A stretch of DNA of 64,000 nucleotides, from NCBI GenBank assembly GCA_017640785.1, contig JAEPPZ010000001.1, positions 1-64,000 on the forward strand, in the 5' to 3' direction. Below the pieces are notes generated by a model. The model was given only the letters and a program-made list of their open reading frames with translations. It was not told where the DNA came from and ran no database searches. Made by a program: the position numbers and the translations under genes. Numbering within the stretch: the stretch's first letter is position 1; each line of letters opens with the position of its first letter. The DNA comes from Balneola sp. GTDB lineage: Bacteria > Bacteroidota > Rhodothermia > Balneolales > Balneolaceae. Positions 4,883-34,896 of the stretch are shown piece by piece.

Positions 4883-5956
4883 ATGAAGAAATTTTTTAGT
4901 TCTGTATTTCTGCTTTTTACAATTCTCTTGTTTTCGGCTTCAACAAGTGCTCAAGAGTCAAATTTTCAATTTTATGGAAATGTGCGTTTAGCACATATAG
5001 GAAATGATACCGAAGCAAGTGGGCTTGGCGGAGACAATACTTTATTGCGAATACGTCCCGGTGTTAAGTATTTCTTCAATAAAAATCATTCTTTTTCAGG
5101 TCGGTTAGTTTATTTGGTTTCTAAAGAAGCAGAACCGTTTGAGTTTACTATTAAAGCAAACGGAAACCGCCAATTGGCTTACGGTTCACTTTCTTTTGAT
5201 GAATTTTACTACCAGTACACCAAAGAAGACTTCCTTTTAAAGATGGGACGGTTCCAAAAATCTATAAGTGTTTTGTCAAATGCAGGTCGGTCGCACTTAA
5301 GATTTCAAAGTAATGCAAATTTCGTGCATTGGAGTGATGGATTATATCTTAAAAAAGGTTTGAACAGTGAATGGTTTGGAGAAGCTATTATCGAATATCA
5401 AAACCGAGATGCACTTTCATTTCCATACAAGGCAAATCTGAATTATGGTAATTCTGAACATAATTTTAACTACTATCTGGGAGCTGAAAACAGAACACGT
5501 GACCAGAATAATATTATCCAAAAAGGTTTTGGAATTTTCTTTGCGCCTAATGCATACTCTAAACCGGATGGGTTTTCAACTTATGTGGCATTAGCCTCAA
5601 GAATAACCTTTGACTTTCCTGCTGAAGATGTATTGAAAGGCGGGTCTTTCAGGATTGTTGGAGAACTTGGTCAAAATTTAAATACTGAATTCAAAAACGG
5701 AACAAGTGCCGTTACTTCTTTTGGGATCAATAAATATGCCGAAAAACATGAATTAATGGTAGAGTTTGCCAGCACAGATTCACAATGGTTAACTGCCAGC
5801 CCGTATGGAGTAAACTCTGAAGAAATTGAAATCAGATATCGATTTATTTTCAGATCAGATCTAAACTTTGATATTCGTTACAGAATCCGGGAATCCAGAT
5901 CTGATTTAGTTCCTACTCAGTACAGTACATTTTTGAGAACTACTTATTCCTTCTGA
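4883..5956 (+). CDS. Outer-membrane beta-barrel protein, porin-like
   Basis: A 357-residue protein with a signal peptide (MKKFFSSVFLLFTILLFS, cleavage near STSAQ at 24). The mature protein is dominated by alternating, aromatic-rich strands (FQFYGNVRLAHIG, ENRTRDQ, HELMVEFAST, EIEIRYRFIFRSD) and ends in a terminal Phe (TYSF), as outer-membrane barrels do. Such strands recall alginate-export or phosphate-selective porin-type barrels, but no motif fixes a substrate. The gene stands alone between the acetyltransferase and pheA, with 80 bases of upstream sequence. Confidence 0.65.
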   Translation: MKKFFSSVFLLFTILLFSASTSAQESNFQFYGNVRLAHIGNDTEASGLGGDNTLLRIRPGVKYFFNKNHSFSGRLVYLVSKEAEPFEFTIKANGNRQLAYGSLSFDEFYYQYTKEDFLLKMGRFQKSISVLSNAGRSHLRFQSNANFVHWSDGLYLKKGLNSEWFGEAIIEYQNRDALSFPYKANLNYGNSEHNFNYYLGAENRTRDQNNIIQKGFGIFFAPNAYSKPDGFSTYVALASRITFDFPAEDVLKGGSFRIVGELGQNLNTEFKNGTSAVTSFGINKYAEKHELMVEFASTDSQWLTASPYGVNSEEIEIRYRFIFRSDLNFDIRYRIRESRSDLVPTQYSTFLRTTYSF

Positions 5957-5958
5957 AA

Positions 5959-7095
5959 TCAATTTTCTTGCTTGGCATAGCAGCCCAGAATAGTAAGTTC
6001 GGCTGCTTTTTCTTCCAATTTTTTAAGTGCTTTCTTAGTTTCAGGATCAGCTGTATTTGCAATGATATCCAAATGAAAAGAATACTTCCATGGTTCATTC
6101 AGCCTTGGTCGCGATTCCAGTTTACTCATATTAATGCCGAACTCATGCAGAACATTCAAGCATTCGATCAAAGAACCTTCCTCATTAGAAGTCACCATCA
6201 AAAGTGATGTTTTTGCCGGAATCTGAAGATCAACTTTAACCGGTTTCGGAGCCACAATTACAAATCTGGTATAGTTCTCTTTTTGATTTGCGATGTCGTG
6301 AGCAATCACTTTTAAACCATAATGATCAGCGGCGTGTGCTCCGGCTATTGCTGCCTGAGACAGATCTCCGTCTTCCAGAACTTTTCGTGCTGAAATTGCT
6401 GTGTCCAGATAAGATTCTACTTTGCTTCTCGGGAGTCTGGACAAAAAGTGAGTACACTGTGCAATAGCTTGCGGATGCGATAGAATTCTTCGAATCTGTG
6501 AAACATCCACATCTTCAACTGCTAACAGGCAATGAACTATTTTCAGGATCTCCTCTCCCACAATATGCAGATGTGCTTCCCCCAGAATGTCGTATGTATC
6601 ATTGATAGAGCCTGCCGTTGTATTTTCGATAGGTAAGCAAGCCAGATCAACTTCACCTTCCTTCACTGCTTTTGCAGCTCCTAAAAAAGTGTCGTAGCCA
6701 TAGCTCTCTACTTTTCCATAACGCTCACCAAAATGTCGCTGAATGGCCAGATGAGAATAAGCTCCGTCTGTTCCCTGATAACTTACCTTGATGGTTTCGC
6801 CATTGCTTTCGTTTTGATGATCAACTAAAGAATGAGTTTGAAATCGAACAGAGTTTGTAATGATTTCTCGGAATAAATGTTCTGCATAATATCTGTCCAG
6901 ACCAATTTCCTGGGCAAAATGACGAATCCGATTCAGAAGTTGCTCCTCCCTCTCCATATCCCTGATACCTGCTTCTTTGTCGATCTTAAGCGCTGCAACT
7001 TCTTTTACAATATCCTGCCGTTCAGCAACCGCTTTAAGTATGGTTTTATCAATTTGGTCTAGACGTTCCCGAATAGATTCAAGTTCTTTTTTCAT
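5959..7095 (-). CDS. pheA: Bifunctional chorismate mutase / prephenate dehydratase
   Basis: A P-protein of phenylalanine biosynthesis. An AroQ-type chorismate mutase occupies residues 1-90 (LESIRERLDQIDKTILKAVA; later DMEREEQLLNRI). A prephenate dehydratase domain follows (VSYQGTDGAYSHLAIQRHFG; CLPIENTTAGSINDTYD; ENYTRFVIVA). An ACT regulatory domain closes the protein (TSLLMVTSNEEGSLIECLNV; KLESRPRLNEPWKYSFHLDI), whose ESRP motif is the Phe-binding feedback site. The frame is open to 7191, but I place the start at the ATG at 7095 (MKKELESIRE). That start leaves a divergent promoter gap before the TspO gene and gives 378 residues, a usual length for this fusion. Confidence 0.93.
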   Translation of the reverse strand: MKKELESIRERLDQIDKTILKAVAERQDIVKEVAALKIDKEAGIRDMEREEQLLNRIRHFAQEIGLDRYYAEHLFREIITNSVRFQTHSLVDHQNESNGETIKVSYQGTDGAYSHLAIQRHFGERYGKVESYGYDTFLGAAKAVKEGEVDLACLPIENTTAGSINDTYDILGEAHLHIVGEEILKIVHCLLAVEDVDVSQIRRILSHPQAIAQCTHFLSRLPRSKVESYLDTAISARKVLEDGDLSQAAIAGAHAADHYGLKVIAHDIANQKENYTRFVIVAPKPVKVDLQIPAKTSLLMVTSNEEGSLIECLNVLHEFGINMSKLESRPRLNEPWKYSFHLDIIANTADPETKKALKKLEEKAAELTILGCYAKQEN

Positions 7096-23292: not shown

Positions 23293-24365
23293 TTATGAGG
23301 TAATGAGGAAGTGGTTATTAAGTTTTCGGAGGTAGATGTCCATTCGCAGACTGCTTTTATATTTCCAAAACCCCAGATAGGTCATCTCGCGGCGTATGCC
23401 CGAGATCTGGATAGTTTTGAGGATTATGACAGTGATAACGATCCAGGTTCCTGCCTTCGCAGGAATGACCGTAAAGCTGGGTGATGGAGGTTGTAACAAC
23501 TTTGATCGAAGTGTCAGATATAAAAATCCCGTTCATAAGCTAGCAAGGGCTTCAGCCCTGCGGTTTTGTGGACGAGGAATTTAATTACCAAAAAAAGCCG
23601 GTCGGACTGTAGTCCTCTCTAGCGAACTTAATACTGAATGTTGGTAATGATTTAGATTTTCTCAGGTACACTAGCCAGTGATTTATCCCGCAGCGAGTAA
23701 AGGCAGGCAATTACATAAACCTCAGAACCTGAAGGATCTGCTTGTTTAAAAATCACATAACAAAATTTATGCTAGTAGGGCGTTCACGCCCGGCGATTAT
23801 TTACAACCTGCGTTGATGACAATCGATCTTGGTCATCTCGCGGCGTATGCCCGAGATCCGGATAGTTTTAGAGGATTATGCTTGTGATAACAATCCAGAT
23901 TCCTGCCTGCAAAGCAGAAAAGACCTCCTCTGTCTCCTCCTGCAACAGGAGGAGGACTCGCTGAAAAAAATTAGAATCAACTCGGGAATTCCCCTCCTTA
24001 TCCAAGGAGGGGCGAACTACTCAGAACCCACGAATGTGTTTCGGAATTGGGGAGGTCCATTTCTTGCTCAACAACCAAAATTAGTTGAGGTCATCTCGCG
24101 GCGTATGCCCGAGACCTAGATAGTTTTAGAGGATTATGCTTGTGATAACAATCCAGATTCCTGCCTGCAAAGCAGAAAAGACCTCCTCTGTCTCCTCCTG
24201 CAACAGGAGGAGGACTCGTTGATAAAAATTAGACTCAACTCAGGAATTCCCCTCCTTACCCAAGGAGGGGCGAACTACTCAGAACCCGAGAATTTGTTTA
24301 GGAATTGGGGAGGTCCGCTTCCAACGAAAGCACCGGAACCAGATCAAATACTAAATTAAATTTGC
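23293..24365. repeat. Repeat block C: five-unit repeat array
   Basis: More than 1 kb with no gene. Order: R1 (23381-23469), partial R4 (23471-23526), R3 full length (23537-23820), R1 variant (23832-23919), R2 (23922-24058), R1 variant (24090-24179), R2 (24180-24316). The last four make a tandem R1-R2-R1-R2 of about 258-bp period. In these two R1 copies the terminal hairpin CTTCGCAGGAATGAC is replaced by CTGCAAAGCAGAAA, which shows that they derive from one another. The open frame at 23829-24119 is only a translation of the repeats. Confidence 0.8.
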
Positions 24366-25598: not shown

Positions 25599-26189
25599 AT
25601 GCACACCATGAATCCCAAGGTTGATTTCTTTTTTAACAAAAACAGTAAATGGCAGGACGAATATGAATTATTGAGAACCATTATTCTGGATTGCGGACTG
25701 AACGAAGAATTAAAATGGGGCAAACCATGCTACACCGTAAACGGGAACAATGTGGTGTTGATACACGGATTCAAAGACTATTGCGCGCTGTTGTTCCATA
25801 AAGGAGTGTTGCTGAATGATGCGGAAGACATTTTAGTACAGCAGACAAAAAATGTACAGTCGGCACGACAAATTCGTTTCACCGATGTGGAACAAATAAA
25901 TGATATGATGGCAGTCTTACGATCTTATATCTTTGAAGCGGTTGAAGTTGAAAAAGCAGGACTGGAAGTCCCAATGAAGAAGACTGCTGACTTTGAAATG
26001 GCAGAAGAATTCCGGGAAAAACTGGATGCCATGCCTGAACTGAAAGAAGCTTTTGAGTCACTCACTCCCGGCCGACAAAGAGGTTATCTCCTCCACTTCT
26101 CAGGAGCCAAACAATCCAAAACCCGGGCCTCACGAGTTGAAAAATGTATTCCCGACATCCTTGAAGGCAAAGGTCTGAACGATCGCTGA
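25599..26189 (+). CDS. YdeI/DUF1801 family protein
   Basis: A 196-residue cytoplasmic protein. The N-terminal DUF1801-like fold shows LNEELKWGKPCYTVNGNNVV and FKDYCALLFHKGVLL; the C-terminal OmdA-like helical part has SLTPGRQRGYLLHFSGAKQS and TRASRVEKCIPDILEGKG. YdeI of Bacillus and its relatives have been tied to peptide resistance or iron-related stress, but the molecular role is unclear. It is the last gene of the ArsR operon. An ATG at 25608 is an alternative start. Confidence 0.85.
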   Translation: MHTMNPKVDFFFNKNSKWQDEYELLRTIILDCGLNEELKWGKPCYTVNGNNVVLIHGFKDYCALLFHKGVLLNDAEDILVQQTKNVQSARQIRFTDVEQINDMMAVLRSYIFEAVEVEKAGLEVPMKKTADFEMAEEFREKLDAMPELKEAFESLTPGRQRGYLLHFSGAKQSKTRASRVEKCIPDILEGKGLNDR

Positions 26190-26275
26190 ACCGGAGCAAA
26201 TCCGCCCACATTGGCAAACCGAATTTTGTACGCGAAATGTCCAACCGCATTTGGAACGGCGAATTAAAAACCAAA

Positions 26276-26409
26276 ATTCCGTACGGGCGGATCGCAATCC
26301 GCCCCCGATGGTTTACAGCGAATAAATCCATTCCGAAATTGTAAATCCCTTGAACAACCAACCAAAAACACCCAAATAATATGTTTTTGCTTTACTTGGC
26401 GGAATTGTT
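26276..26409. repeat. Left copy of ~135-bp direct repeat around the kinase fusion
   Basis: It begins with a GC-rich hairpin (GGGCGGATCGCAATCCGCCC; 8-bp stem) and ends TGCTTTACTTGGCGGAATTG. A second copy in the same orientation lies at 28009-28144, about 80 percent identical by eye. The remaining bases of the 257-bp gap between YdeI and the kinase fusion show no gene. Confidence 0.75.
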
Positions 26410-26446
26410 AATATTAAAGCGTTATAATGTTAATTAATTTTAGCTT

Positions 26447-27799
26447 ATGAAGAAACCCGTATTAGTTATTGGTTCAGTTTTGCTTGATATCGTCGGAACT
26501 TATGGAGATTCTGAAGATGGTCTCATTAACAAAAAAGGGAAACTTAATTTTTCAATTGGTGGTGTTGCATTCAACATGGCTTCAAATTTGTCTTCGAAAG
26601 GAATTCCAACTTCGATAATCACATGTTTGAAAAGCAATTCAATTAGCTCAAAAGTAATTGAGGAACAATTGAAGTTTAGTAATATTAATGAATTTATATA
26701 CAGATCTCACCAAATAGACGAAACTGGGTATGTAGCACATTTCTGCGGAAAAGATTTAAAAACAGGTATTACAAGTTCTGAAATTGAAGAAATTGACCTA
26801 AAACAAATAAGAAATATTCCTAATCTTATTGACAATTCAAGTTTTGTGATACTAGACACAAATTTATCGACTATTCAATTGAGATATTTATGCTCCATTT
26901 GCTTAGATAAAGGCAAAAAAATATTTGTTAATGTTGTCTCTGATGCAAAATTCGATAGGATTTATAAGAAAAAATTTTCAAAACCATTTGAAGCCATTTG
27001 TATTAGAAAAGGTGAACTTGATTCAAATAATATTTTTACCAATGAACTAATCATAGATCAAAGTAGCATTTCTTCGTTTTGTTCTGATGTTAATTCAAAT
27101 ACTGTTTTTATAAACAGTGAACTGAATGGGTATTACATCCTCTCAAAAAATGGTAGCTATGAATATACAAAGGTAAAGTATCCTACCCCTGAAATAAAAA
27201 ACACACTTGGGGCTAATGATGCCTTGTTTTCTGCAGTCTGTGCTTCTGAATATGAAAAAGAAGCAATTGATGGTGATGAAACTAAAATGAAGATTAAGGA
27301 ATGGGTCACGGGAATACTAAGATCAGACAGATCTAATTTTGAAGGAATTGATAGTAAAATAAATAACCAACTTAATACAATAAAAGTCATCACGACTATT
27401 CTATTTTTAATACTCGCAATAGTTTCAACTGTAATTAGTTCCTTTACTCCAGACGAAGATTTAAATCATATTTTCTTTGGATTACTTTTGTTTTCAGTCG
27501 CATCTTTTGGTGGAGCATCTGGAGCACTTTCTAGAGAAATGGTAGCCCAAATTACAAATAATACAAAGAGAAACCTTTCGATGGGCACGTCCATTGCTCT
27601 TGGGATGACTGCGGGAACACTTGCTTCATTTATTGGAATACTTCCTGGAATTGCATCGGGTTCAGGTATAGAGCAACTAATAAAGCAAGATTTACTACCT
27701 ATAATGGTTTTTATCGTTAGCATTTCAACTGGAATAGCATTGGATGTATTCTTTGATAACCTTTCTAAAAAAAATACCCACGACTTAATTGAAATTTAA
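26447..27799 (+). CDS. PfkB-family kinase fused to a four-helix membrane domain
   Basis: A 450-residue protein. Residues 1-300 form a ribokinase/PfkB-like domain: VIGSVLLDIVGTYGD (7-21), the GGxxxN sugar-binding motif in SIGGVAFNMASNLSSKG (36-52), and the catalytic-loop motif LGANDALFSAV (254-264), with Asp258 as the presumed base and Asn replacing the usual second Gly of GAGD. A linker leads to four hydrophobic helices at about 314-333, 341-360, 378-400 and 412-434, rich in Gly and Ser. Soluble PfkB kinases end at about 300-320 residues, so the membrane part is an added module. The base composition is AT-rich like the SIR2-HerA genes that follow. I do not recognise this fusion; sugar or nucleoside kinase activity is plausible but unproven. 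Confidence 0.75.
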   Translation: MKKPVLVIGSVLLDIVGTYGDSEDGLINKKGKLNFSIGGVAFNMASNLSSKGIPTSIITCLKSNSISSKVIEEQLKFSNINEFIYRSHQIDETGYVAHFCGKDLKTGITSSEIEEIDLKQIRNIPNLIDNSSFVILDTNLSTIQLRYLCSICLDKGKKIFVNVVSDAKFDRIYKKKFSKPFEAICIRKGELDSNNIFTNELIIDQSSISSFCSDVNSNTVFINSELNGYYILSKNGSYEYTKVKYPTPEIKNTLGANDALFSAVCASEYEKEAIDGDETKMKIKEWVTGILRSDRSNFEGIDSKINNQLNTIKVITTILFLILAIVSTVISSFTPDEDLNHIFFGLLLFSVASFGGASGALSREMVAQITNNTKRNLSMGTSIALGMTAGTLASFIGILPGIASGSGIEQLIKQDLLPIMVFIVSISTGIALDVFFDNLSKKNTHDLIEI

Positions 27800-28008
27800 A
27801 TCTAAACTCTTTTTAGACTCGATAACAAAGCAGCGGTTTCAGAGTTACTTTTAAGGAAGAAATTTTCTGGTTCCCATTCCTTCTCACACATCGGTTAATC
27901 TTTACTCTTTTACTCCAGACACTCAAAGGGTTGCCCACTTTTATATAACCTTTGAGTATTGATCTTAGAGTAAAATTGAGCCCTGAAAATATCCGGGATC
28001 TCAACCCA

Positions 28009-28144
28009 ATACCGTACGGGCGGATCGCAATCCGCCCCCGAAGGTTTTTACCACGCATGAACCCATTCTGAAATTGCAAAACCCCTGAACAACCTACCGG
28101 AAATGCCCAAATAATAAGTTTTTGCTTTACTTGCTGGAATTGTT
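28009..28144. repeat. Right copy of ~135-bp direct repeat
   Basis: It matches 26276-26409 in order and orientation, including the GGGCGGATCGCAATCCGCCC hairpin and the AAATAATA-GTTTTTGCTTTACTT end. It lies in the 476-bp gap between the kinase fusion and the SIR2 gene. Outside the repeat, the gap (27800-28008 and 28145-28275) shows no gene. Confidence 0.75.
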
Positions 28145-28275
28145 CACTTTATCCAAATTATTTTAAGAATAAGTCGAATAAAATTTTAACATCAAACTGG
28201 GACAACATGGATAGTGTTAGTGTTATACCGTTGTTGTTCATGCCAAAACAACTTATGACTAATCAGAAATATTAA

Positions 28276-29301
28276 ATGGATAAAGAAGCGATCTATAAAC
28301 AGCTCCAAGCATGGACTAATAATATTCCGCTCATAATTCTCGGTAGTGGAGCTTCCGTCCCTTTTGATCTTCCTTCAATGTGGGCTCTTGGAGAACACTT
28401 GAAAAACTCTATTAGTTTTACTGTAACAGAAGACCAGGACCAATTTGAAGAATTTAAAGATGAATTTGATAAAACAGGAGATTTAGAATCAACCCTTACA
28501 AAACTTCACTTACGTCCAAACGTACTTGCAAAAATTGTAGATAAAACATGGGAGTTAGTAAATGAATATGACTTAAAGGCTTATGAAAAATTTATAGATA
28601 AAGAAAATGATTTTCCTTTAGCAAAACTGTTAAGTTATTTATTAGATACTGCAGGTAAAAAAGTATCGATTATTACAACAAATTATGATAGACTTGCTGA
28701 ATATGCTACTAGTTTAGCAAAGGCAATAGTTTGCAGTGGGTATTCTCAAAATCACATAGGGCACTTTTCAAATAATATTCAATTAAACAATTTAGCTTCT
28801 CTAAAAGGCTTTAGCGGGCAGGTAAATATTTGGAAAGTACATGGTTCACTAGATTGGTTCAAATCTAATGAGGAAGAAAATATTCAACTACCAATAAGGC
28901 AAAGTATTCCTAAAAATTATCGCCCACTAATAGTAACACCAGGGTTAAAAAAATACTCAGAAACACATAATGAGCCTTATAGAACCATTTTAACTCAAGC
29001 AGACTCTGAAATTGAGAGTGCAAATGGTTTTTTGTGTATAGGTTATGGTTTTAATGACATTCACGTTCAACCGAAATTGATTGCACAAATTAAAAGCAAC
29101 AAACCAATTATCGTTATTGCTAAGAAACTTACACCAAAAGCAAAACAATCTATTATCGATAATAAATGTCAAAACTATTTACTTATTGAGGAAGCTAATT
29201 CTAGCGACACTAAAATTTACTCTTCAAAATTTAATGAGTTTGAAATTAAAGACACTAGTTATTGGCAATTAGGCGAGTATTTAAAACTAATCCTTTCATA
29301 A
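28276..29301 (+). CDS. SIR2-domain NADase of a SIR2-HerA (Nezha-type) defence system
   Basis: A 341-residue protein with an SIR2_2 domain: the NAD-binding loop LIILGSGASVP (20-29), IITTNYDRLAEY (132-143) with the conserved Asn136 and Asp138, KVHGSLDW (187-194) with catalytic His189, and a late LCIGYGFNDIHV (253-264). It lacks the zinc-binding cysteines of protein deacetylases. In SIR2-HerA systems this subunit hydrolyses NAD+ during phage infection, usually in a large complex with HerA, and stops growth. It is followed by herA with a 7-base gap. The composition is AT-rich compared with the flanks. Confidence 0.88.
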   Translation: MDKEAIYKQLQAWTNNIPLIILGSGASVPFDLPSMWALGEHLKNSISFTVTEDQDQFEEFKDEFDKTGDLESTLTKLHLRPNVLAKIVDKTWELVNEYDLKAYEKFIDKENDFPLAKLLSYLLDTAGKKVSIITTNYDRLAEYATSLAKAIVCSGYSQNHIGHFSNNIQLNNLASLKGFSGQVNIWKVHGSLDWFKSNEEENIQLPIRQSIPKNYRPLIVTPGLKKYSETHNEPYRTILTQADSEIESANGFLCIGYGFNDIHVQPKLIAQIKSNKPIIVIAKKLTPKAKQSIIDNKCQNYLLIEEANSSDTKIYSSKFNEFEIKDTSYWQLGEYLKLILS

Positions 29302-29308
29302 AAACACT

Positions 29309-31054
29309 ATGTCAATATTTCAATTTGAAGAATCTAAATCAGTCGGAACAGTTTTTAGTGTTGACACTGCTACTATCATCGTAAAAGTCGAAGAACTTGA
29401 CAAGCTTCGCAAACTACAAGTAAATCATCTGATTGCTGTAAAAAGCTCGAAAGCAGGTCAACATCTTATTGGTATAATCAATCGAATTACAAGAAAAGTA
29501 TCAGATGACGAAAACTCTGAGTCTGAAGATTTAGGAATGTCCAATTTTCTACTCACAGAAAATATCTTAAAAGTTAATTTAATTGGAACTTTAATAGATA
29601 AACACGGAGATAAAGAAAATGTCTTTAAAAGAACTTTAGATACTGTACCAGAAATTGAGGCTAACTGTTTTCCGGTAGATGGAGAAAATATAACAAAATT
29701 TATGCGGACGATATCTTCTCAAGAAAACTATGATATCCCTCTTTCACTTGGCAAATACTCAATTGACGAAAATGCAGATGCGTTTTTAGATGGGGACAAA
29801 CTTTTTCAAAGACATGCTGTAATTGTAGGAAGTACTGGTTCTGGTAAATCTTGGTGTGTAGCTAAATTAGTTGAGCAAATAGCAAAACTTCCTATGGCAA
29901 ATTCTCTTCTTTTTGATATTCACGGAGAATATAGTGGTGAAGGTTTTAAATCAGAAGGAATTCAGCATTTTAGAATTGCAAACCCATCTGATTTAGGAAA
30001 AAATGGAAATCTTGGTAATAATGTTTTAATGCTTCCATATTGGCTTTTGACGTATGAAGAAATGTTAGCTATGCTACTAGATAGAAGCGATAGTAATGCA
30101 CCTAATCAAGCTATGATTTTTTCAAAAACTGTTTTTGAGGAAAAAATTAATTTCTTAGAAGAAATTGGTGATACAACTTTTAAAGATAGTATTACAATTG
30201 ACAGTCCGATTCCTTATAAAATGGAAAATGTACTAAAAACTATAAAGGAACTAGACGAAGAAATGGTAACAGGCTCAAGTGGTAGACCAAAGCAAGGACC
30301 ATTTTTTGGTAAACTAACTAGATTTATACAAAGATTAGAAGCTAAAAGCCAAGATAAAAGACTTGGATTTATGTACCAAATTTCTCAAGATGAATTAGAC
30401 ATAAACTGGATGAATGAATTATGTAATTCATTAATGCAAGGATCTAAAAATAACGATAAAAAAGCAGGTTTAAAAGTTATTGATTTTTCAGAAGTTCCGT
30501 CTGATGTTTTACCTCTCGTTATAGGATTAGTTGCTAGAATCGTCTTTACAGTCCAACAGTGGACTAATAATGATAAAAGACATCCAATTTGCTTAATGTG
30601 TGATGAAGCTCATTTGTATATACCAGAAAGGACAAATCAAGATTCAGCTTCCGAACTTGGTCTAAAGAATTTTGAAAGAATTGCAAAAGAAGGAAGAAAA
30701 TATGGGGTTAGTCTTACCGTCATAAGTCAACGACCTGCCGAAGTTAACAGAACCGTTCTAAGCCAATGTAATAATTTTATATCACTAAGATTATCAAATG
30801 CAGAAGACCAATCTGTCATAAAACGTTTACTCCCAGATAATCTTTCTGGATTAACAGATGTATTACCAATTTTAGATATTGGAGAAGCACTTGTAGTTGG
30901 AGATTCATCTCTTTTACCAACAAGAATATTAATAGATGAGCCGACAATTAAACCACAAAGTGCAACAATTGACTTTTGGAAAGAATGGAGTAATGATAAT
31001 GCAGAACAAGATTTACCAAGTGCAGTTATAGGTTTAAGAAAGCAATCAAAATAA
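29309..31054 (+). CDS. HerA-type hexameric ATPase/translocase, SIR2 partner
   Basis: A 581-residue FtsK-HerA-superfamily ATPase. The N-terminal HAS-barrel (1-150) is followed by a RecA-like domain with Walker A GSTGSGKS (174-181), LFDIHGEYSGE (201-211), Walker B ICLMCDEAHLYIP at about residue 430, and the sensor region VSLTVISQRPAEVNRTVLSQ. A C-terminal LPILDIGEALVVGD matches HerA proteins. In SIR2-HerA defence the ATPase assembles with and activates the SIR2 NADase. The NurA nuclease partner used in archaeal DNA repair is absent here, which favours the defence role. Confidence 0.9.
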   Translation: MSIFQFEESKSVGTVFSVDTATIIVKVEELDKLRKLQVNHLIAVKSSKAGQHLIGIINRITRKVSDDENSESEDLGMSNFLLTENILKVNLIGTLIDKHGDKENVFKRTLDTVPEIEANCFPVDGENITKFMRTISSQENYDIPLSLGKYSIDENADAFLDGDKLFQRHAVIVGSTGSGKSWCVAKLVEQIAKLPMANSLLFDIHGEYSGEGFKSEGIQHFRIANPSDLGKNGNLGNNVLMLPYWLLTYEEMLAMLLDRSDSNAPNQAMIFSKTVFEEKINFLEEIGDTTFKDSITIDSPIPYKMENVLKTIKELDEEMVTGSSGRPKQGPFFGKLTRFIQRLEAKSQDKRLGFMYQISQDELDINWMNELCNSLMQGSKNNDKKAGLKVIDFSEVPSDVLPLVIGLVARIVFTVQQWTNNDKRHPICLMCDEAHLYIPERTNQDSASELGLKNFERIAKEGRKYGVSLTVISQRPAEVNRTVLSQCNNFISLRLSNAEDQSVIKRLLPDNLSGLTDVLPILDIGEALVVGDSSLLPTRILIDEPTIKPQSATIDFWKEWSNDNAEQDLPSAVIGLRKQSK

Positions 31055-31165: not shown

Positions 31166-31978
31166 ATGGAATACGATCATTTCAACGTTGACATAGAACA
31201 TAAAATAGCGCGGGTTGCTTTCAACAGACCGGAAAAGTCGAACGCGCTTAACATGGAAGCCTGGCTTGAGATGCGATCCATTTTTCAAAGGCTCTCAGAA
31301 ACGAGTGAAGTGAGAGTGATCATTCTCTCGGGAGAAGGAAAACATTTCTGTACCGGAATAGATCTGGAGTTGTTAATGTCGGTCGATCAATTGCGAGCAA
31401 TTTCCGATCAAGACCAACGAAGTGAGAAAGCCAAAGAATTCATTCTAACCCTTCAGCAGGCAGTTACCTCCATAGAAAAATGTTCCAAACCGGTGATCGC
31501 TGCCGTCCACAACGGATGTATCGGCGGTGGAGTTGATATTATTGCTGCTTGTGATCTGAGATATTGCACTAAAGATGCTTACTTCTGTATCAAAGAAATT
31601 GATCTGGCTATGGTTGCTGATCTGGGCACGCTTCAACGCTTACCAAAGATCATCTCCCCTTCCGTAGTTGCAGAAATGGCCTACACCGGAAAGAATGTTT
31701 TCGGTCCTGAAGCAAAAGAAATCCATTTAGTAAATGAATGTTTTGACACGGAAGAATTATTGCACGAAGGCGTTATGAAAATTGCATCAAGTATTGCGGA
31801 AAAATCACCCATTTCCATTCGTGGAACTAAAAACGTATTACGACATTCAAGAGATCATTCCGTCGAAGACGGCCTTGAATATATCGCAGACTGGAATTCC
31901 ACCATGTTATTCTCTGATGATATGGCTGAAGTATTTGAAGCCATGAAGGAAAAACGGAAACCTGATTTTAAGGATTGA
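31166..31978 (+). CDS. Crotonase family: dienoyl-CoA isomerase-like
   Basis: A 270-residue enoyl-CoA hydratase/isomerase-fold protein. Oxyanion-hole segments are GEGKHFCTGIDLELL and HNGCIGGGVDIIAACDLRYC. The active-site stretch FCIKEIDLAMVADLGTLQRL carries the Glu and Asp (KEID, ADLGTLQRLP) that mark delta3,5-delta2,4-dienoyl-CoA isomerases rather than hydratases. The expected role is isomerising dienoyl-CoA esters during degradation of odd-position unsaturated fatty acids. The stop codon (31976-31978) abuts the left 51-bp repeat. Before the toxin-antitoxin insertion this gene and the SDR gene were probably convergent with a gap of about one base. Confidence 0.88.
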   Translation: MEYDHFNVDIEHKIARVAFNRPEKSNALNMEAWLEMRSIFQRLSETSEVRVIILSGEGKHFCTGIDLELLMSVDQLRAISDQDQRSEKAKEFILTLQQAVTSIEKCSKPVIAAVHNGCIGGGVDIIAACDLRYCTKDAYFCIKEIDLAMVADLGTLQRLPKIISPSVVAEMAYTGKNVFGPEAKEIHLVNECFDTEELLHEGVMKIASSIAEKSPISIRGTKNVLRHSRDHSVEDGLEYIADWNSTMLFSDDMAEVFEAMKEKRKPDFKD

Positions 31979-32028
31979 AGCCTACATCGGCTTTACTTCT
32001 CCGCCCTGTGGCATAATATCGATTTCTT
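31978..32028. repeat. Left 51-bp direct repeat flanking a toxin-antitoxin unit
   Basis: A perfect copy of 32616-32666. The right copy contains the stop and last 15 or so codons of the SDR gene (encoding ...IDIMPQGGEVKPM), so this left copy is a detached duplicate of an SDR 3' end. The two copies are offset by 638 bp and bracket parDE. Confidence 0.93.
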
Positions 32029-32033
32029 AAACA

Positions 32034-32065
32034 TTTGCTTCAGATACAGTATTGGTGTAATTTTG
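32034..32065 (+). promoter_or_regulatory. Promoter of the toxin-antitoxin operon
   Basis: TTTG at 32034-32037 and TAATTTTG at 32058-32065 fit the Bacteroidota consensus (TTTG, about 20 bases, TAnnTTTG) exactly. The antitoxin ATG follows ten bases later at 32076. The promoter begins just inside the left 51-bp repeat, so the inserted unit carries its own promoter. Confidence 0.6.
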
Positions 32066-32075
32066 CATCAAAAAG

Positions 32076-32318
32076 ATGGCGCGTCAGAGCATTACATTTA
32101 CAAGACCAAATGATGAATGGTTGAAATCTCAGGTTGAGAACGAAGAATATTCCAGTAAGAGTGAATTAGTTAACGATCTAGTGCGGCAGGCAAGAAATCA
32201 GAACGCTGAGATAAACTGGATCAGAGCAAAACTGGAAAGAGCTGAAAAAAGTGGTTTTACCACCGACACTAAAGAAGAGATACTAAACCAATCAAAATCT
32301 CAGCTGAAAAATGGCTGA
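32076..32318 (+). CDS. ParD-like type II antitoxin
   Basis: An 80-residue protein of the CopG/ParD ribbon-helix-helix type: an N-terminal strand and helix (ARQSITFTRPNDEWLKSQVE, then YSSKSELVNDLVRQARNQ) and an acidic-basic C-terminal tail that would wrap the toxin (LERAEKSGFTTDTKEEIL). It overlaps the toxin gene by eight bases. It should neutralise the ParE-like toxin and repress the operon. The unit lies between two perfect 51-bp direct repeats. Confidence 0.88.
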   Translation: MARQSITFTRPNDEWLKSQVENEEYSSKSELVNDLVRQARNQNAEINWIRAKLERAEKSGFTTDTKEEILNQSKSQLKNG

Positions 32319-32598
32319 TTATCGGTTAAGCAATGAAGCTAAAATAGATTTAATAAGAATTCATCAGTACGGTATCAAACAGTTCGGTGTACAACAAGCC
32401 GATCTGTATTTTAAAGCTCTATTTGATTGCTTTGATAATATTTCTGAAAGACCATTCTCTTTTGAATCTGTTGATTACATCAAATCAGGATACCGACGAT
32501 GTGTTTGTGGTTCAGATAGTATTTATTTCAAAATTAATAATGAGATAGTAGAAATAATGGCAGTTATTGGAAATCAGGATTTGTCAAGCATTTTGTAA
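32311..32598 (+). CDS. ParE/RelE-family toxin
   Basis: A 95-residue RelE/ParE-superfamily protein: YRLSNEAKIDLIRIHQYGIK at the N-terminus, the central helix QADLYFKALFDCFDNISERP, and the C-terminal strands SGYRRCVCGSDSIYFKI and VEIMAVIGNQD. The motif order fits ParE (gyrase inhibitor) better than RelE, which would show conserved basic catalytic residues. The start overlaps the antitoxin gene, so the two are translationally coupled. Confidence 0.88.
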   Translation: MADYRLSNEAKIDLIRIHQYGIKQFGVQQADLYFKALFDCFDNISERPFSFESVDYIKSGYRRCVCGSDSIYFKINNEIVEIMAVIGNQDLSSIL

Positions 32599-32615
32599 CC
32601 GGATTCGATAAATAT

Positions 32616-32666
32616 AAGCCTACATCGGCTTTACTTCTCCGCCCTGTGGCATAATATCGATTTCTT
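32616..32666. repeat. Right 51-bp direct repeat, within the SDR gene end
   Basis: Identical over 51 bases to 31978-32028 and in the same orientation. Bases 32620-32666 are the stop and last codons of the SDR reading frame, so this copy is part of the intact gene. Confidence 0.93.
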
Positions 32667-33980: not shown

Positions 33981-34896
33981 AGTATTGAGGGAACTGTTTA
34001 TAAAAACGGGATTTTATTGATCTCACAAAATACGGCTAATACTAACCAGAAGAAACCAGAGGATGGGACTAGTTCAAGTCATCTCGCGGCGTATGCTCGA
34101 GATCTGGATAGTTTTAGAGGATTATGTTTGTGATAACGATCCAGATTCCTGCCTTCGCAGGAATGACTTTGATTGAGATTTCTAAAGTTAAAGACCTCCT
34201 CTGTCTCCTCCTGTAACAGGTGGAGGACTCGTTGATAAAATTTATAATCAACCCGGAAATTCCCCTCCTTATCCAAGGAGGGGCGAACTACTCGGAACCC
34301 GAGAATTTGTTTCGGAATTAGGGAGGTCCACAACAACCAGAATAAGTTAAAGTCATCTCGCGGCGTATGCCCGAGATCTGGATATTTTTAGAGGATTATG
34401 CTTGTGATAACGATCCAGATTCCTGCCTTCGCAGGAATGACCTTGATTGAGATTTCTAAAGTTAAAGACCTCCTCTGTCTCCTCCTGCAACAGGAGGAGG
34501 AGTCGTTGATAAAATTTATAATCAACTCGGGAATTCCCCTCCTTAACCAAGGAGGGGCGAACTACTCAGAGCCTACGAATTTGATTCGGCATTGGGGAGG
34601 TCCGTTCCGACGCAGAGCATCGGAACCAGATTAAATCCGTCAGCCGTGCAAAGCCCGACAGACGGAGAAGTAGCTATCCATCATTTCGCTGAAAGCGGGG
34701 TGATGGAGGTTATTAAACGTTAATTGGTGTTTCGGATATAACAACTAGCAATAAACCCCGCAAAGTTCCTGAAACAATACTGAATCAAGTTCAGCACATG
34801 GTTCAGGATGACCTATTTATGTGATTTTGAGTGTATCAAAAAGGTTCTGACGCGAAACAATTAGCGCCAAAAAAAAACAAACGAATTCGACCTTTA

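Follow-up and report, generated by a model that had tools for sequence, protein, structure and literature searches.

The gene studied here encodes a protein of 450 residues in which a domain apparently closest to the pseudouridine kinases (PsuK) is joined to four predicted transmembrane helices. It forms a module of its own in a defence hotspot of the Balneola genome and is likely to have a role in defence. Positions refer to the window, by which we mean the whole stretch of 64,000 nucleotides that was analysed (Table 1). The explanation that we favour, tentatively, is that of a mobile single-gene defence or conflict module in which a PsuK-like ligand sensor would drive a membrane-damaging four-helix domain. 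The defence role is argued from where the gene lies, a single slot compared in five species, and the mechanism is argued from the anatomy of the protein.

Table 1 Features of the hotspot and of the pfkB-membrane gene (positions in the window)
Feature	Position	Strand	Basis or remark
Left hotspot flank: DUF1801/OmdA-like gene, conserved in sister species	25599..26189	+	
Boundary sequence copy 1, before the pfkB module	26275..26416	+	142 bp; single-copy in four sister species
Extra module: pfkB-membrane gene and downstream AT-rich DNA	26417..28002	+	Absent from four sister species
PsuK-like/PfkB domain and four-helix membrane domain, 450 aa	26447..27799	+	ORF; Pfam PF00294 E = 1.8e-10; hydrophobicity peaks
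Ribokinase-fold domain of probable pseudouridine-kinase type, residues 5-266	26459..27244	+	Pfam; PDB 3kzh and pseudouridine kinases; alignments, tree
Four predicted transmembrane helices, residues 312-434, putative orphan domain	27380..27748	+	Hydrophobicity; low-confidence single-sequence model; homologue search negative
Boundary sequence copy 2, before SIR2-HerA	28003..28237	+	84-90% identical to the single copy in sister species
SIR2-like defence protein of the SIR2-HerA pair	28276..29301	+	PADLOC 2.9e-130; PF13289; PDB SIR2 proteins
HerA-like ATPase, partner of SIR2	29309..31054	+	PADLOC 4.9e-244; PF01935; PDB HerA
Right hotspot flank: enoyl-CoA hydratase gene, conserved in sister species	31166..31978	+	

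The reading frame starts with ATG and is open throughout its length. The PfkB family covers residues 5-266 with a score of 41.1 bits against a cut-off of 25.8; the GGxxxN motif is formed by G38-G39 and N43, and the GAND motif, residues 255-258, ends in the catalytic Asp258. The coordinates, the fusion of a PfkB domain to membrane helices and these motifs had all been described correctly in the initial annotation, which had also placed the gene in an AT-rich segment. This too was borne out, the gene having a GC content of 31.6% and a GC3 of 22.8%, whereas the conserved genes on either side have a GC3 of 40-44%; the SIR2 and HerA genes are AT-rich to the same degree. The protein matched none of the PADLOC protein models at E <= 1, a search of Rfam gave no family, and promoter-like matches were at chance level only. 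An AlphaFold model of the whole protein, made without an alignment, had a pLDDT of 38.

Both flanking proteins are 93-96% identical in four sister species, while the DNA between them is wholly different in each. In one (G159) the site holds an OLD/Gabija-like AAA15-TOPRIM protein and two small genes, in another (G096) an AbiP2 defence reverse transcriptase (PADLOC E = 2.2e-194), in the third (G038) a protein kinase-HD protein together with a GmrSD/HNH protein, and in the fourth (G026) a 360-residue protein without an assigned family. The GC content of this cargo is 29-32%, against ~42% in the flanks, in all the species compared. Thus, with unrelated low-GC defence genes held between the same conserved flanks in sister species, the site from the OmdA-like gene to the enoyl-CoA hydratase gene is a defence hotspot. 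The 360-residue protein (L032, 3552-4631), the sole cargo of its site and without a match in Pfam or PADLOC, is another candidate defence gene. The small ORFs of 127 and 70 residues that flank the OLD/Gabija-like gene (L031, 3791-4171 and ~5932-6141) may belong to its system; the 127-residue ORF has no confident family match.

Within the hotspot, the pfkB-membrane gene and the SIR2-HerA pair are each preceded by a copy of one boundary sequence. The two copies are ~85% identical to each other, and the genome contains no further full copy and a single partial match of 34 bp. The initial annotation had placed the gene directly upstream of SIR2-HerA; the order is as described, but a gap of 476 bp, containing the duplicated boundary sequence, separates it from the SIR2 gene, so that the two do not form a tight operon. 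The slot thus contains two stacked modules, the pfkB segment as the extra one and SIR2-HerA as the other. Since the boundary sequence stands before each of them and is single in the sister species, the pfkB gene is to be regarded as an independent module rather than as a member of a SIR2-HerA operon, and this structure argues for a defence role of its own. Of the earlier proposal of an undescribed defence gene beside SIR2-HerA, the role in defence or conflict is supported, by the position of the gene and by the other defence genes at the same site in sister species, whereas the partnership finds no support. The boundary sequence also holds a hairpin-forming element, GGGCGGAT-CGCA-ATCCGCCC, at 26279-26304 and 28012-28037, of which the genome has exactly two copies and which could serve in regulation or recombination.

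Among solved structures the kinase domain matched 3kzh, a probable sugar kinase, best, followed by other PfkB kinases including pseudouridine kinases. The first relative that was found (L002) comes from a fecal contig, where psuG follows the pseudouridine-kinase-like gene. Nine matching kinases, all stand-alone, turned up among 391 genomes from a different class of the phylum, the best with E = 7.4e-15 and 29% identity. All eight PsuK relatives examined (family f45) directly adjoin a PsuG-type gene and lack the membrane part, and the ninth matched kinase (G120) resembles an ordinary ribokinase. A tree of 18 PfkB proteins has pseudouridine kinases as the rows nearest by path, in a placement without strong support, and the branch leading to the kinase domain of the fusion is very long (3.48 changes per column; PsuKs, 0.45-1.2). 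By sequence, the domain therefore appears nearest to PsuK, at an identity of 18-29% to true PsuKs; the PsuK equivalog model PRK09850 (NCBIfam) scores 16.6-17.8 bits, well below its cut-off of 540 bits.

The residues of E. coli PsuK (EcPsuK) that contact pseudouridine have been described (PMC9247573). In our alignment nine of these nucleoside contacts are kept: D16, G41, V42, N45, N143, V166, S167, K170 and D256 of EcPsuK correspond to D14, G39, V40, N43, N139, V164, S165, K168 and D258 of the fusion protein. Where pseudouridine kinases have the Ser/Thr that recognises N1 of the ligand, the fusion protein has Asn28; Asn14 of EcPsuK is Leu12 (Ile in AtPUKI), and the positions of Tyr97 and Met114 also differ. 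Because of these four changes the ligand may be something other than pseudouridine itself.

Further changes lie on the phosphate-donor side. D164 of EcPsuK is N162 in the fusion protein, GAGD has become GAND, so that the catalytic Asp258 is retained and the second Gly is now Asn, and the C-terminal lobe that follows this motif is unrecognisable. At 18-29% identity the residue assignments are uncertain, above all for the NxxE motif, on which the alignments disagree: in one its Asn is Arg187 (RxxE) and in another the motif is gapped. This Asn is also missing in some annotated PfkB kinases, for example EcYeiI. Likewise, the small ATP loop has Glu225 in place of its first Gly, but two PsuK relatives also lack this Gly, so that the change is non-diagnostic alone. 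Like the catalytic Asp258, a candidate glutamate, Glu190, is retained, and the protein may therefore have some kinase activity. With the nucleoside pocket kept and the ATP side altered, the domain nevertheless seems more likely to be a sensor that binds a nucleoside, and has little or no kinase activity, than a functioning kinase. The suggestion that a PfkB enzyme depletes a nucleoside or ATP pool is weakened by this combination of an altered donor side with a retained pocket; the version of the earlier reading that appears to fit best is the sensing of a nucleoside coupled to an action on the membrane.

The hydrophobic segments of the C-terminal part lie at residues ~312-330, 342-360, 381-399 and 416-434. 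The loop at 359-382 has three Lys/Arg residues and that at 329-342 has none, and for this reason both termini are probably cytoplasmic (N-in/C-in). The helices also appear in a weak single-sequence AlphaFold model of the membrane part (pLDDT 58). Searches of plasmids, of 245 genomes from the same class, of the 391 genomes from the other class and of solved structures gave no relative of residues 286-450, and no Pfam, NCBIfam or PHROG family, transporter families included, was matched above cut-off. A search with the membrane domain alone gave matches at chance level, the best of which (L070) overlaps the gene of an NrfD-like membrane protein. Residues 312-434 would thus be an orphan four-helix domain. 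Matches to DUF6773, DctA and BaxI were below threshold and were set aside.

A search for other examples of the full fusion in genome contigs, viral contigs, plasmids and phages (by tblastn) and whole genomes found only stand-alone kinases. The two scans of genome contigs were limited to the patterns used, the second being a weak scan with a single narrow pattern, and the whole-genome samples came from one phylum. Artificial variant rows in three alignments (A2-A4) guided the choice of patterns only and are not used as evidence. A scan of viral contigs for PsuK sequences with which to build an alignment gave no kinases, and the literature searches brought up no defence protein that joins PfkB to a membrane part. 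We considered the 'pfkB' of KKP as a relative and rejected it; KKP is a kinase-kinase-phosphatase toxin system and has the gene letters alone in common.

From the anatomy and the position of the gene we infer a role in defence, sensing of a ligand and damage to the membrane, in the following way. The cytoplasmic, PsuK-related N-terminal half would bind a small molecule, either a nucleoside or a related compound, that changes in level during phage infection. Upon binding, and with phosphorylation slight or absent, the four-helix domain would change its conformation and would then permeabilise or depolarise the inner membrane and so stop both phage production and the cell. A more specific form of this explanation, possible but doubtful, makes the protein the first anti-phage effector in which a PsuK-type nucleoside kinase has been turned into a sensor gating a membrane domain, with RNA turnover or the release of modified nucleosides as the alarm.

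The protein can be compared with three known systems. With PsuK (E. coli PsuK/YeiC and Arabidopsis PUKI; PF00294) it shares the ribokinase fold, the GGV..N, TNL and VS..K motifs, the catalytic Asp and most of the pseudouridine-contacting residues. It differs in its low identity, in Asn28, Arg187, GAND and the unrecognisable C-terminal lobe, in the added four-helix membrane domain and in its neighbourhood, there being no psuG-like gene among the neighbouring ORFs. In ligand-gated membrane effectors of defence, a CARF, SAVED or CARF-like domain is joined to transmembrane helices, for example in Cap1 of type III CRISPR (PMC12642688). The fusion appears to follow the same plan, a soluble small-molecule-binding domain with transmembrane helices, but its putative binding domain has a ribokinase fold, and the gene has neither a nucleotide cyclase nor a CRISPR complex next to it. 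SIR2-HerA is its neighbour in the hotspot, but the pfkB gene is a separate module without a PADLOC match.

Other explanations share some of this evidence. A defence protein with an active kinase, which would phosphorylate a nucleoside or burn ATP at the membrane with the helices serving only as an anchor, would suit the defence hotspot and would account for the retention of Asp258, GG...N43 and the nucleoside pocket. We consider it unlikely, given the loss of the NxxE Asn, the change from GAGD to GAND, the unrecognisable ATP-side lobe and the fast divergence. It is quite unlikely that the protein serves in salvage, as a nucleoside carrier with a trapping kinase, and is a fitness gene that lies in the hotspot by chance. 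Transporters coupled to a kinase are a known means of taking up and trapping a substrate, and the nearest kinase relatives adjoin psuG in catabolic operons, but here the membrane part matches no transporter family above cut-off, psuG is missing from the adjacent ORFs, and the cargo of the sister species at the site is defensive.

The same strand, the adjacent position and the shared base composition might be read as the marks of a regulator or accessory of SIR2-HerA, one that senses, for example, products of NAD breakdown; the 476-bp gap with its duplicate boundary sequence points instead to two modules, and we find this reading very improbable. We give as little credence to a decaying or non-functional orphan gene. 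The long branch speaks for such a gene, as does the fact that none of the collections searched gave a homologue of the fusion, but the frame of 450 codons is intact, its GC3 bias is strong and the pocket residues are preserved.

If the explanation of a PsuK-like sensor gating a membrane domain is true, the ribokinase/PsuK fold would be a new sensing fold among the small-molecule-gated membrane effectors, and free nucleosides from RNA decay, pseudouridine for example, might report infection. The stacking of modules behind copies of one boundary sequence also offers a route to further candidate defence genes in the genus.

Two other elements lie close to the hotspot. At 31959-32666 a ParD-ParE toxin-antitoxin pair (32076-32598) is found between two copies of a 51-bp sequence that forms the 3' end of the SDR gene next to it. 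The corresponding site is empty, with one copy of the 51-bp sequence, in the sister species with the AbiP2 gene, and the pair is present in the three other sister species; the arrangement resembles an insertion in which the target was duplicated. On either side of the hotspot region, at 23415-24316 and 34071-34603, there is a dispersed repeat with the palindrome ATTCCTGCCTTCGCAGGAATGAC, which has 30 matches genome-wide with two mismatches or fewer.
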